Of a stretch of DNA of 40,347 nt, positions 1-3,556 are shown piece by piece. Position numbers and translations under genes: made by a program. The stretch is from positions 1 through 40,347 of the forward strand of contig JACAEX010000038.1 of NCBI GenBank assembly GCA_013388635.1. Reading direction: 5' to 3'. Every line of letters starts with the position of its first letter. Within the stretch, counting starts at the first letter, position 1. Under the pieces are notes generated by a model, which worked only from the letters and a program-made list of their open reading frames with translations, searched no databases and was not told the DNA's origin. The DNA comes from Syntrophaceae bacterium. GTDB taxonomy: Bacteria; Desulfobacterota; BSN033; UBA1163.

Positions 1-158
1 CTTTCGAGCTTTTCACGGGCAAGACGACTGGGAGATGTTACTCCCTGCTCCCATTTTGAGACAGTCGATAACGACAATCCCAGCTTCCTTGCTAAATCTT
101 CTTGTGTAAACCCCAATTCAAGCCTGATTACCTTAATATCAACAGGTTCTTTTTTCAT
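1..158 (-). CDS. Xre-family HTH DNA-binding protein (3' part outside window)
   Basis: The first 52 codons of a minus-strand gene run off the left edge. The visible part is almost entirely a Cro/CI-type helix-turn-helix: IRLELGFTQEDLARKLGLS followed by the recognition-helix residues STVSKWEQG. Such proteins are DNA-binding repressors or activators, often antitoxins or element regulators. The start is ATG at 158. No Shine-Dalgarno sequence lies upstream, and a TTGACA box about 25 bases further up puts the likely transcript start at or next to the ATG, so a leaderless mRNA is plausible. The gene is divergent from the three-gene AT-rich operon at 553-2331 and may regulate it; that link is inference. 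The C-terminal part, which would tell an antitoxin from a phage-type regulator, is not visible. Confidence 0.8.
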   Translation of the reverse strand, partial: MKKEPVDIKVIRLELGFTQEDLARKLGLSLSTVSKWEQGVTSPSRLAREKLE

Positions 159-172
159 AGTAAAATTACTAT
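157..172. promoter_or_regulatory. Palindromic operator candidate at the start of the Xre gene
   Basis: The inverted repeat ATAGTAA-AA-TTACTAT overlaps the ATG of the minus-strand HTH gene. Just upstream (about 190-195, minus strand) is a TTGACA -35 box, with an AT-rich TAGTAAT-like -10 inside the palindrome. This is a classic place for autorepression by an Xre-type protein. The repeat is seen; its function is inferred. Confidence 0.45.
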
Positions 173-293
173 CACAGGTTATTCTGTTTGTCAAGATATT
201 TTTGAGAAATCTAAATGGTTAGATACCAATTCTTAGCCCATAAATCCAAATTCGGGCTATTTAAAACGAGTTTCCAAAGTCTGAAATTAATAA

Positions 294-309
294 TTGGCAC
301 AAATATTGC
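294..309 (+). promoter_or_regulatory. Candidate sigma-54 promoter
   Basis: TTGGCAC-N5-TTGC matches the -24/-12 consensus (GG and GC elements with the correct spacing) exactly. It points toward the operon that starts at 553, giving a leader of about 230 bases. No activator gene or enhancer site is visible in the window, so it could be a chance match in AT-rich DNA. Confidence 0.35.
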
Positions 310-410
310 GTTTGATTTAATATTGAGGGGTTATATAATATTTTTATTATCTCAAAATTAACTTGAAATCTTTTCCGTTTAAAAGACGAGCCATAAATAA
401 CGCTACTTCG

Positions 411-439
411 TTGACATTCTATGTGGTTTATGGTAAAAG
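411..439 (+). promoter_or_regulatory. Candidate sigma-70 promoter of the AT-rich operon
   Basis: TTGACA at 411-416, a 17-base spacer and TAAAAG at 434-439, with a predicted start near 446. This leaves a leader of roughly 107 bases before the gene at 553. It is the better-placed of the two promoter candidates in the 159-552 gap. That gap otherwise holds only AT-rich sequence with no convincing gene. Confidence 0.4.
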
Positions 440-552
440 AAGATAAAAATTCAAAGGAAATACGAACTATTACCCTAATAGTCAATAAGAATAGAAGGTT
501 TACCTCATCCATCGCTTTGAAATTTCTATTGAACAATTAAGGTGCTAATCAA

Positions 553-1182
553 ATGGCTGATTTAATTATTTCGAACTTCAATTTAGCTTTTTTTCAGCCA
601 CCAAGGAAACCTTTGCCAGATGAAGTATTCTCAGAGATTTTATCGAGCGTTCTCCCCCATTTTCCGATTGCCGATCAAATATCCAACCCAATTTTGTTCG
701 CAAGGCGGAAAGAGGGTGGTGAAATTAGTATGACCCCTATATTTGTTCAATTCTTAAATTTTGAGACAAAGGATTTTACTTTTGACCTTAAGATAACCAA
801 AGAAATAGCAGATAGTTATTTCGCCAAATATAAGGCAGACAAAATTCATCAAATCGTTATTCGTTTCGCTTCTATCAAAGATGCGAGTTTTCGGGATGAA
901 GAGCGCCAACTTATCAAAGGGGAGCACCTTAAGCTGACTCCAGACAATGCGAAGATTTTGACCCCCTCAGGGGATGTAAAGATGGGAGTCAGATTAGTGT
1001 TTCGGCGGGATGACAAGAGATATGATGTAAGAGTCGAACCTTACTTCAAAAAAATCGAGTGTAATTATATAGATTTCAATGTGGTTCTTCAAAATCTTGC
1101 CATTCCTCCAAACGATGTTTATAGATTGGTTGAACAGGAGTTAGTTTTTTTTACGAAAGAGTTTTCCAAGGTGGTTATATAA
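553..1182 (+). CDS. Hypothetical protein, first gene of AT-rich island operon
   Basis: A 209-residue soluble protein with no signal peptide or membrane segment; I cannot assign a family with confidence. The N-terminus (LIISNFNLAFFQPP) is followed by alternating beta-like segments. A central stretch ends in GVRLVFRRDDKRYDVRVEPYF, and the C-terminal segment IDFNVVLQN precedes a last helix. The general layout recalls the TIGR04255-type proteins that occur sporadically in mobile DNA, but this is only an impression. It is followed 10 bases later by the gene at 1193 and is probably co-transcribed with it. Base composition is clearly more AT-rich than the genes right of 4100, which fits horizontal acquisition. 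Confidence 0.7.
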   Translation: MADLIISNFNLAFFQPPRKPLPDEVFSEILSSVLPHFPIADQISNPILFARRKEGGEISMTPIFVQFLNFETKDFTFDLKITKEIADSYFAKYKADKIHQIVIRFASIKDASFRDEERQLIKGEHLKLTPDNAKILTPSGDVKMGVRLVFRRDDKRYDVRVEPYFKKIECNYIDFNVVLQNLAIPPNDVYRLVEQELVFFTKEFSKVVI

Positions 1183-1192
1183 GGGGGATTAT

Positions 1193-1831
1193 ATGCTCCA
1201 GAACCCAGAGTTAATTTCATGGGGTAGCGGCTTATTGGAGAGTGGCAAAAATGAATCTTATGAGCTACCGAGGGAAGTAACAACATATCGGGAAAAGATC
1301 CATTCACAGGTAAAATTTCGAATTTTAGACAAGCTTTTTGGGTCATTATGGGTATGCGTAGAAAATCCAAGGAATGAGATTGATAACCCCATTCGTTATT
1401 GCACTCAACCCCTTTACACTGCAATTTCAACATTCATGGTTACAAATCTTAGAGAGAATTTTTTAAAGGAACAGAATGTATCTTGGTCCTGGAACATACT
1501 CGTCCGATTACAGGAAAGGTTGAACAGTAGAATCCAGATCGATTTAAATGTTCCTCCAGGCTGGTGGGGCTTGTTGCGTCATGGAGCAATACCAATTGCG
1601 GAATACTGCGTTTTAGCTTATATGGCCGGCAAGATTTCGGCTGAAAAGGCTATTGAGCTTTCAGGTGTGGATCAAGTGGAATTTGCTTCTATGGTTAGAG
1701 AAAAAACTCAGGAAAGGCAACTTCCTATATTTCGTGCGTATCTCAAAGGGGAAGCGGCTGAAGATCAACTACCTTTTTCTGAAGAAGCCTCCAATAGATT
1801 CAAAGATCTAATGGCAAAAGAAGTGGAATAA
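1193..1831 (+). CDS. Hypothetical protein with UPF0175-like C-terminal helices
   Basis: A 212-residue protein; GGGGGA upstream of the ATG is a good ribosome site. The first 130 residues are unrecognised, with aromatic-rich helices. The C-terminal part reads AYMAGKISAEKAIELSGV followed by an acidic helix. That resembles the short helical motif of UPF0175-type and related antitoxins (aliphatic-x2-GKIS-x-x-KA-x-ELxG). It sits between the unknown gene at 553 and the MazF-like gene at 1837, with gaps of 10 and 5 bases, so it is a candidate antitoxin or adaptor for the downstream protein. The family call is tentative; only the C-terminal motif supports it. Confidence 0.65.
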   Translation: MLQNPELISWGSGLLESGKNESYELPREVTTYREKIHSQVKFRILDKLFGSLWVCVENPRNEIDNPIRYCTQPLYTAISTFMVTNLRENFLKEQNVSWSWNILVRLQERLNSRIQIDLNVPPGWWGLLRHGAIPIAEYCVLAYMAGKISAEKAIELSGVDQVEFASMVREKTQERQLPIFRAYLKGEAAEDQLPFSEEASNRFKDLMAKEVE

Positions 1832-1836
1832 GGGTT

Positions 1837-2331
1837 ATGAAACCGTTCCCCGGGGCCATAACAACTCAAGGAGTATACGAAGCTCTCATACCGTTTAAAT
1901 TAAGGTATCCTTACAAAATTGTGAAAGAAAATAATCAAGTAGAAATGAAACCAGAACTGTTTCCTGAGGAGGAAAAAGAAAATTTCATTGATGAGGCAGA
2001 AGAATTTGAAATTGGAACAAGCTACAAGTTAAGGCCGGTGATCATTGTATACGACTCACAGGTGAATAAAGCCTATTTAGCCATAGCTATTAGCAAAAGA
2101 AAAGATGATAATATAGACTATCTTTTAGCGGTTTGCCAAAACGAAATCAAGGAGAGGCATTTCTTGTCTCAGAAAAAATATCCAGGTATGCTCAAATTTG
2201 ATTCCTATGTTTTGATAGATAGGATATACCCGATAGACGATAAAAATATTTATTATTCAAGGGGTCGTCTCGATAATTCTGATTATGATGAAATCCGTGT
2301 AAAACTGAAGAAAGTTCTTGCGCTAAATTAA
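1837..2331 (+). CDS. PemK/MazF-like protein (candidate type II toxin)
   Basis: A 164-residue protein whose core fits the PemK/MazF plan. A KLRPVIIVYD strand follows an acidic N-terminal region of about 60 residues, then comes AYLAIAISKR. Near the C-terminus MLKFDSYVLIDRIYPI leads into a RGRLDNSDYDEIRVKLKKVL tail. MazF/PemK proteins are ribosome-independent mRNA endoribonucleases neutralised by a partner encoded just upstream. Here the upstream neighbour, 5 bases away, is a protein with an antitoxin-like C-terminus. The acidic N-terminal extension is longer than in standard MazF (about 110 residues), so a non-toxin relative is possible. RNase activity is not shown by sequence alone. Confidence 0.6.
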   Translation: MKPFPGAITTQGVYEALIPFKLRYPYKIVKENNQVEMKPELFPEEEKENFIDEAEEFEIGTSYKLRPVIIVYDSQVNKAYLAIAISKRKDDNIDYLLAVCQNEIKERHFLSQKKYPGMLKFDSYVLIDRIYPIDDKNIYYSRGRLDNSDYDEIRVKLKKVLALN

Positions 2332-2480
2332 AACCATGCTGAAGCAGAATGTGATTAGATAAAAGAAGTAATATTTCCCTAGGGGGTTGGGGAGCAATTA
2401 ATACTATCCATATACTATCCAAACAATTTCTTTATTAAAATTTGTTTTGAATTTTGGTGAGTTACAAAGGGGGCCGCTTA

Positions 2481-2503
2481 TTCGATTCCCGCCGCCTCCA
2501 CCA
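2481..2503 (+). other. Displaced 3' end of tmRNA or tRNA-Ala (attachment-site scar)
   Basis: 23 bases reproduce the end of a tRNA-like gene: T-loop TTCGATT, 3' T-stem CCCGC, acceptor strand CGCCTCC, discriminator A and an encoded CCA. The acceptor strand carries T at the position equal to U70 of the G3-U70 pair that marks alanine acceptors, so the source is tmRNA (ssrA) or tRNA-Ala. The 5' T-stem that should precede it (GCGGG) is absent, and no D-arm or anticodon arm is present. This is therefore not a gene but the duplicated core left when an integrase inserts an element at such a gene. The AT-rich DNA to its left would be the element. Confidence 0.7.
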
Positions 2504-2530
2504 ATGATTTCAATAAATTATGTACTAACT

Positions 2531-2591: not shown

Positions 2592-3556
2592 ATGGCGAGA
2601 AAGCCGAGAGTTCACTTCCCAGGTGCTCTATACCATGTGATTGCTCGGGGAAATCAAGGGCAAACCACCTTCCGAGAGGATGAGGATTACCGTCTCTACC
2701 TGAAATTTCTATGTGAATATAAGGAGCATTCTGATTTTGTTCTTCATGCTTATGTTTTGATGCCTACCCACCTCCATCTCCTCATTGAGACCGGTGAGGT
2801 AAGCTTATCCAAACTCATGCACCGGCTCCAATTCAGATATACACGCAATTTCAACCTCAAATACAGAACTTGGGGCATCTTTTTCAGGGGCGTTACAAAG
2901 CCATTCTATGTGACAAAGATATGTATCTCTTGGAGCTTTCAGCCTATATTCATCTAAACCCTGTACGGGCTGGGCTGGTGAAAAATCCTGCTAATTATCC
3001 GTGGAGTAGTTATTCTTCCTACTTGGGAAGAAGCAGGGATTCTATTACTGACACCGACTTTGTGCTCAGTCAGTTTTCGGACAAGAAAAACGCAGCAAGG
3101 AGAAAATACGATCTATATGTCAGGGATCGTCTCGGTCAAGGACATCGAGACGATTTTTATGAAACAAAAGATCAACGTTTCTTGGGGGACGGTGAATATC
3201 TTGAATATGTTGGACGGCATATCAATCAAACTCTTCCGTTCAGTTATGAAATTAGACTTGAAGAGATTGTTTCTCAGGTTGGATCAGCGTTAGGAATTCC
3301 CACCGAGCTTTTATATAGCTCCAGCCGGAGCCATCAGGGAGCCTGGGGCCGAGCTGTATGTGCCTACTTAGGTCATAGGGTTGGAGGCTTTCACATAAAA
3401 GAGATTGCAGAACGTTTTAGTCGTGATCCGGTAGCGGTCACGTATGGTCTTAAGAAAGTGGAACAGAGACTGAGAGAAGATAAGAAAGTAGAGGCCGAAA
3501 TGAGGGCGCTTGAAAACAGCCTTGTTAAAAATGGGAGGCGGAAGATAAAAACTTAG
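2592..3556 (+). pseudogene. REP-associated tyrosine transposase (RAYT, Y1_Tnp), frameshifted
   Basis: RAYTs cut and rejoin single-stranded REP-type sequences through an HUH motif and a catalytic Tyr. The N-terminal part (ALYHVIARGNQG, then PTHLHLL with His60 and His62) is in the frame that opens at 2592. The remainder (GHLFQGRYKAI, then AYIHLNPVRAGLV carrying the expected catalytic Tyr) is in the -1 frame from about 2870. One base appears to be missing near 2871-2873, between the HUH motif and the Tyr, so neither piece alone can be active. No classical slippery heptamer is in place, which argues for decay or a sequencing error rather than programmed frameshifting. The C-terminal region (HIKEIAERFSRDPVAVTYGLKKVE) is the DnaA-domain-IV-like helix-turn-helix found in many RAYTs. 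Confidence 0.85.

Follow-up and report, generated by a model that had tools for sequence, protein, structure and literature searches.

The left end of the 40,347-nucleotide stretch of Syntrophaceae bacterium DNA analyzed here (the window, which is the entire contig C89 of a 106-contig genome) carries three closely spaced genes, the last of which encodes a PemK/MazF-like protein. Do the three genes act together as a toxin-antitoxin module, or is a two-gene pair preceded by an unrelated gene? An earlier note, made from the letters alone, had proposed a toxin-antitoxin or defense module. Our answer is tentative and is held at slightly less than an even chance: the three genes would together form a type II toxin-antitoxin-like module with three parts, and this module would be cargo of an island in the tmRNA gene ssrA, placed at the island's inner end.

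Operon layout and the ssrA island

The three plus-strand genes described in the earlier note, and the Xre-type gene on the opposite strand, were found at exactly the coordinates given in Table 1. ORF1 and ORF2 are separated by 10 bases and ORF2 and ORF3 by 5 bases, and a purine-rich stretch lies upstream of each ATG. All three frames exceed chance; in 500 first-order shuffles of the region, read in six frames, the median length of the longest open run was 93 aa, and none exceeded 191 aa. Each frame also has a coding-type position bias (GC1 > GC3 >= GC2). The AT-richness ascribed to this end of the DNA is real, the G+C content of the operon region being 36 to 39%, versus about 50 to 55% across most of the window. 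The Xre frame matches HTH_3 in Pfam (E 1.4e-12) and probably begins with the ATG at base 158; at its other end it is cut off by the contig edge at base 1. A tie between the Xre gene and the operon is no more than possible. Promoter-like sites in the region were no commoner than in shuffles, and the search for an operator repeat in the divergent intergenic region returned weak inverted repeats only, none statistically distinct.

Table 1. Features at the left end of the window (positions in nucleotides)
Feature	Position	Strand	Description
Xre-type regulator gene, 5' part (HTH_3)	1..158	-	Runs off contig edge
Divergent intergenic region	159..552	.	A+T-rich; presumed promoter/operator
ORF1	553-1182	+	209 aa; proposed third partner; outside all library families
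ORF2	1193-1831	+	212 aa; proposed antitoxin; UPF0175-like HTH at C end
ORF3	1837-2331	+	164 aa; PemK/MazF family; proposed endoribonuclease toxin
ACTATCCATATACTATCCA, paired repeat	2403..2421	+	Also adjoining ssrA on C41
Attachment-site copy	2481..2505	+	Exact 25-bp copy of tmRNA gene 3' end; island boundary

To the right of the operon, the integration scar reported in the earlier note proved to be an exact repeat of the tmRNA 3' end, extending to 25 bases (Table 1). A single full tmRNA gene is present in the genome (C41:32378-32733, 215.9 bits), and the 21-base core of its 3' end occurs at two genome sites only, the intact ssrA and positions 2483 to 2503 of the window. The Rfam tmRNA model touches positions 2469 to 2503 at 13.2 bits, a score far under its cut-off at the right position. 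Downstream of ssrA on C41 are a protein kinase gene and then the C-terminal part of a tyrosine integrase gene, which runs off the contig end; this Phage_integrase fragment is 1.2 kb from ssrA. Inside each of the two junctions is a paired repeat of 19 bases, ACTATCCA-N-ATACTATCCA, found once in the window and once shortly after ssrA on C41. The expectation from shuffles is 0 at either place, and the repeat probably represents integrase arm-type sites. The locus combines a direct repeat of the tmRNA 3' end with an integrase beside the intact tmRNA gene. From the 25-bp repeat, the intact ssrA, the integrase, and the 19-bp paired repeat common to both sites, we conclude that an island lies in ssrA, with its left part on C41 and its right end in the first 2.5 kb of the window. 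The parts on C41 and C89 would belong to one continuous element with an unassembled middle. Consistent with the placement in the earlier note, the operon is on the inner side of the boundary, and we propose that it is the last cargo before it.

Two other genes near these junctions deserve mention. The protein kinase gene at the opposite island end (L093:1127-2095), flanked by ssrA and the integrase, encodes a Cys-containing C-terminal tail. At positions 2592 to 3556 of the window, an IS200-like (Y1_Tnp) transposase domain and a DnaA-C-type domain are encoded in two overlapping frames, resembling one REP-associated-type transposase gene that is frameshifted near 2870 to 2957, possibly through a sequencing error.

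ORF3 and the candidate antitoxin ORF2

ORF3 scores 28.6 bits (E 1.8e-6) against the PemK family PF02452, above the gathering cut-off of 23.1, with residues 64 to 161 aligned to profile positions 20 to 109; it scored 28.7 bits in a genome-wide PF02452 search and matches the PHROG "MazF-like growth inhibitor" (E 8e-6). The PemK/MazF-like identity suggested for the third gene is thereby upheld, and the corresponding fold is supported at the profile level only. In an alignment with an ordinary MazF of the same genome and the MazF of locus L051 (described below), K64, R66, P67, N77, and D128 are invariant, so that the K-x-R-P motif is retained as K64-x-R66-P67. The catalytic residues of MazF/Kid are the Arg of the R-P pair and the Thr of the next strand. 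ORF3 retains what we take to be the catalytic Arg, and by eye the catalytic Thr position appears as Ser86; likewise by eye, the Q-I-R-T of ordinary MazF reads R-I-Y-P.

Residues 31 to 60 of ORF3 include 12 D/E and 2 K/R. This is the segment that had been described as an unusual acidic N-terminal extension; its acidity stands, and its description as an extension probably does not. Because a hydrophobic strand-like stretch (residues 11 to 29) comes before it, we think it probable that the segment is inserted after the first strand and ahead of K-x-R-P. No relatives of ORF3 were detected in 395 genomes of the phylum or in phages, IMG/VR, or plasmids; the collection scans, here as for ORF1 and ORF2, used short exact peptide patterns and so can miss distant relatives. 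A phmmer match to melanotransferrin was at chance level. Elsewhere in the genome, contig C73 (L004, L005) has two AbrB-type/MazF neighborhoods, the second with its MazF split over two frames. RelE/HigBA-like genes lie nearby, and a transposase fragment lies between them.

ORF2 scores 16.6 bits (E 0.0066) against Pfam UPF0175 (PF03683), below the gathering score of 27.9, and is not classed as a member of that family. Aligned by hhalign to UPF0175 sequences from relatives of the host, it scored 29.9, versus 18.6 for the best of 200 ORF2 shuffles. The match joins ORF2 residues 139 to 181 to columns 25 to 63, a UPF0175-type HTH segment, and the UPF0175-like HTH as a whole spans residues about 135 to 181. 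The UPF0175-like C-terminal motif of the earlier note is thus supported by profile alignment while falling below the Pfam cut-off. The ∼130 N-terminal residues are without family assignment. The AF2 model of ORF2 has a mean pLDDT of 42 and reaches the 70s only around the UPF0175-like segment, which appears as short helices.

UPF0175/COG2886 is an HTH antitoxin family whose partners are PIN toxins or, in cyanobacteria, RelE, and the same survey lists AbrB, RHH, and others as partners of MazF, with UPF0175 not among them (PMC2701414). The neighbors at the UPF0175 loci that we fetched are mostly PIN-like genes. Given these partners, the pairing of ORF2 with a PemK-like protein is unusual, as is its ∼130-residue N-terminal half. 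Relatives of ORF2 were absent from 395 genomes of the phylum, phages, IMG/VR, and one GTDB contig scan; a plasmid match and phmmer matches to enoyl-CoA hydratases were at chance level. In genome G005, antitoxin candidates of 213 to 226 aa (L125 to L129) have an apparent tandem pair of UPF0175-type segments, and each is followed by a PIN-like gene. Judged by family and layout, ORF2 and ORF3 are likely to be a toxin-antitoxin pair.

The first gene and TIGR04255-headed operons

ORF1 is as unrecognized as the earlier note had it: there was no Pfam match at E <= 1, SecB-like chaperones included, and no PHROG match, and NCBIfam and PADLOC returned noise only. A single relative, L003, was found, in a deltaproteobacterial metagenome-assembled genome (28% identity across 130 residues, E 4e-6); L003 and L009 are apparently one and the same contig. 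The relative sits at the contig start with a tatA-like gene next to it and no antitoxin or toxin after it. Searches of plasmids, phages, and IMG/VR yielded no ORF1 relatives, and this relative used as a query matched nothing in plasmids or phages. These collections are uninformative on joint occurrence of the three genes, relatives of ORF2 and ORF3 being undetected and the one relative of ORF1 lacking them downstream. An AF2 model of ORF1 computed with its relative has a mean pLDDT of 50.5, and no fold search with this weak model returned a meaningful match (best Z 5.3; best viral E 0.011).

By eye, the succession of secondary-structure elements in the weak ORF1 model resembles the TIGR04255 consensus. 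Profile comparison did not support membership in that family. ORF1 has no NCBIfam match to it at E <= 1 (cut-off 30 bits), and against 40 TIGR04255 proteins hhalign scored ORF1 at 14.6 by itself and at 16.7 when joined with its relative; both values lie in the range of 40 shuffles, which reach 18.6, the second near its upper end. TIGR04255 has no match in the genome of ORF1 itself, and genes of the family occur in 31 of the 395 genomes of the phylum. At 40 TIGR04255 loci (L046 to L085), some of them close relatives and so incompletely independent, a same-strand middle gene follows within 80 bases in 38 and a third gene, by the same limits of strand and distance, in 34; the sample and boundaries were picked after the sequences had been viewed, and these counts are descriptive, not a test. 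Pfam matches of the third genes (n = 32) were to PIN (3), HEPN (3), DUF7689 (3), HicA (2), and PemK (1). The middle proteins gave no informative Pfam match, and none of them matches ORF2; comparison of ORF3 with the non-MazF third genes gave no link either. PDC-M32A, a candidate defense model of PADLOC, is matched by two of the middle proteins in alignment A4 (best E 9.1e-6). We found no solved structure for TIGR04255 and no paper naming it in the literature searched, which mostly excluded subscription papers and preprints.

Three of these loci point to an exchange of parts. The TIGR04255 proteins of L051 and L049 are 85% identical, and their middle proteins share 57% identity over the first 82 residues and 18% beyond. 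At the third position L051 encodes a MazF, and the L049 product looks unrelated. A MazF frame is present in L052 too, where the tail of the middle protein is 86% identical to that of L051. Because nearly identical TIGR04255 genes are thus followed by a swapped toxin and a swapped C-terminal half of the middle protein, these operons are most simply read as having a constant first gene and adaptor half, with the antitoxin tail and toxin exchanged as a cassette. Since the partner is kept and the toxin changes among such sets in related bacteria, ORF1 may be a working part and not a passenger. The analogy between ORF1 and TIGR04255, to which we give the greatest weight of the comparisons made, is one of layout only, because ORF1 has no significant similarity to that family. 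That ORF1 is a far-diverged TIGR04255 counterpart, with both belonging to a widespread tripartite class of constant sensor and adaptor with exchangeable toxin and tail, we regard as doubtful.

A possible tripartite module, its alternatives, and known systems

As to the module proposed in the earlier note, its toxin-antitoxin part is backed by a PemK-like protein preceded by an antitoxin-type HTH. Its three-gene part is argued from close packing and the analogous layout of the TIGR04255 operons, not from co-occurrence of homologs. In the scheme that we infer, which covers toxicity, neutralization, repression, the trigger, and whatever ORF1 may do, ORF3 would be the toxin, a PemK/MazF-type RNA-cutting enzyme, and ORF2, made just before it, would bind and neutralize it and repress the operon through its C-terminal HTH. 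By analogy, ORF1 is plausibly a required third part, with about an even chance of being so. It would hold or stabilize the antitoxin via the long N-terminal half of ORF2 and could make toxin release depend on an event such as phage infection or island loss. Two reports on toxin-antitoxin-chaperone (TAC) systems describe precedents for such a subunit: a third protein can govern the antitoxin (PMC9098466, PMC11618068), and in CmdTAC it can couple the toxin to infection (PMC11618068).

ORF2 and ORF3 could instead be a plain toxin-antitoxin pair, with ORF1 a passenger on the same transcript and the Xre gene belonging to a neighbor. We consider this possible, if rather improbable. The two genes alone fit a type II layout, UPF0175 antitoxins normally occur in two-gene pairs with PIN toxins (PMC2701414), and the one relative of ORF1 lies elsewhere without ORF2 or ORF3. 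However, ORF1 ends just 10 bases before ORF2 in a region that has no promoter-like signal above chance, the three-gene layout has clear parallels in the TIGR04255 operons, and ORF2 greatly exceeds a simple antitoxin in length, with an unexplained N-terminal half.

If the tripartite reading holds, a special case of it would make the operon an anti-phage abortive-infection module, with ORF1 as phage sensor, and not an addiction module that stabilizes the island. Location at an island end by the integration site, the tripartite layout, and the CmdTAC precedent speak for this case; ORF1, ORF2, and ORF3 have no PADLOC match beyond weak noise, and we think it unlikely. Finally, the changes noted above at the Q-I-R-T and Thr positions raise the thought that ORF3 is a PemK-fold protein that has decayed or been domesticated and has no nuclease activity, with some other function for its neighbors. 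The usual first-strand match is also missing, the Pfam match beginning at profile position 20, and with no relatives found, purifying selection cannot be shown. Against this, all three frames are intact with coding-type bias, and K-x-R-P and the Asp are retained, which leaves decay very unlikely.

The tripartite module that we favor can be set beside four known arrangements. As in MazEF/PemIK (PF02452), a PemK-family gene directly follows a candidate antitoxin of DNA-binding type. Here, however, that antitoxin is long with a UPF0175-like C end in place of AbrB, RHH, or Phd, the toxin has an acidic insertion, and the operon adds a first gene. The UPF0175 (COG2886)-PIN pairs likewise place the antitoxin before the toxin, and their antitoxins resemble the HTH segment of ORF2; in contrast, the partner of ORF2 is PemK-like and not PIN or RelE, and ORF2 has ∼130 extra N-terminal residues and fails the Pfam UPF0175 cut-off. 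The TIGR04255 operons have a first gene of similar size (about 240 to 275 aa), no or tiny gaps, a variable middle gene, and a third gene of a toxin family, MazF included (L051, L052), although ORF1 is not TIGR04255 by profile and ORF2 matches no middle protein. They are themselves a candidate class with swappable toxins that is directly testable for defense. TAC systems (Mycobacterium tuberculosis, CmdTAC) also combine a toxin and an antitoxin with a third protein, for which control of the antitoxin is proposed. The operon in the window is not a TAC member, because ORF1 has no SecB-like match and the extra gene comes first and not last; the toxin family differs as well. As a variant of known modules, the operon combines a PemK/MazF-family gene with the gene of an unusual candidate antitoxin and one gene more. 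If ORF1 is required, the few known three-part toxin-antitoxin systems would gain a member with a MazF-type toxin and an antitoxin of a new kind.
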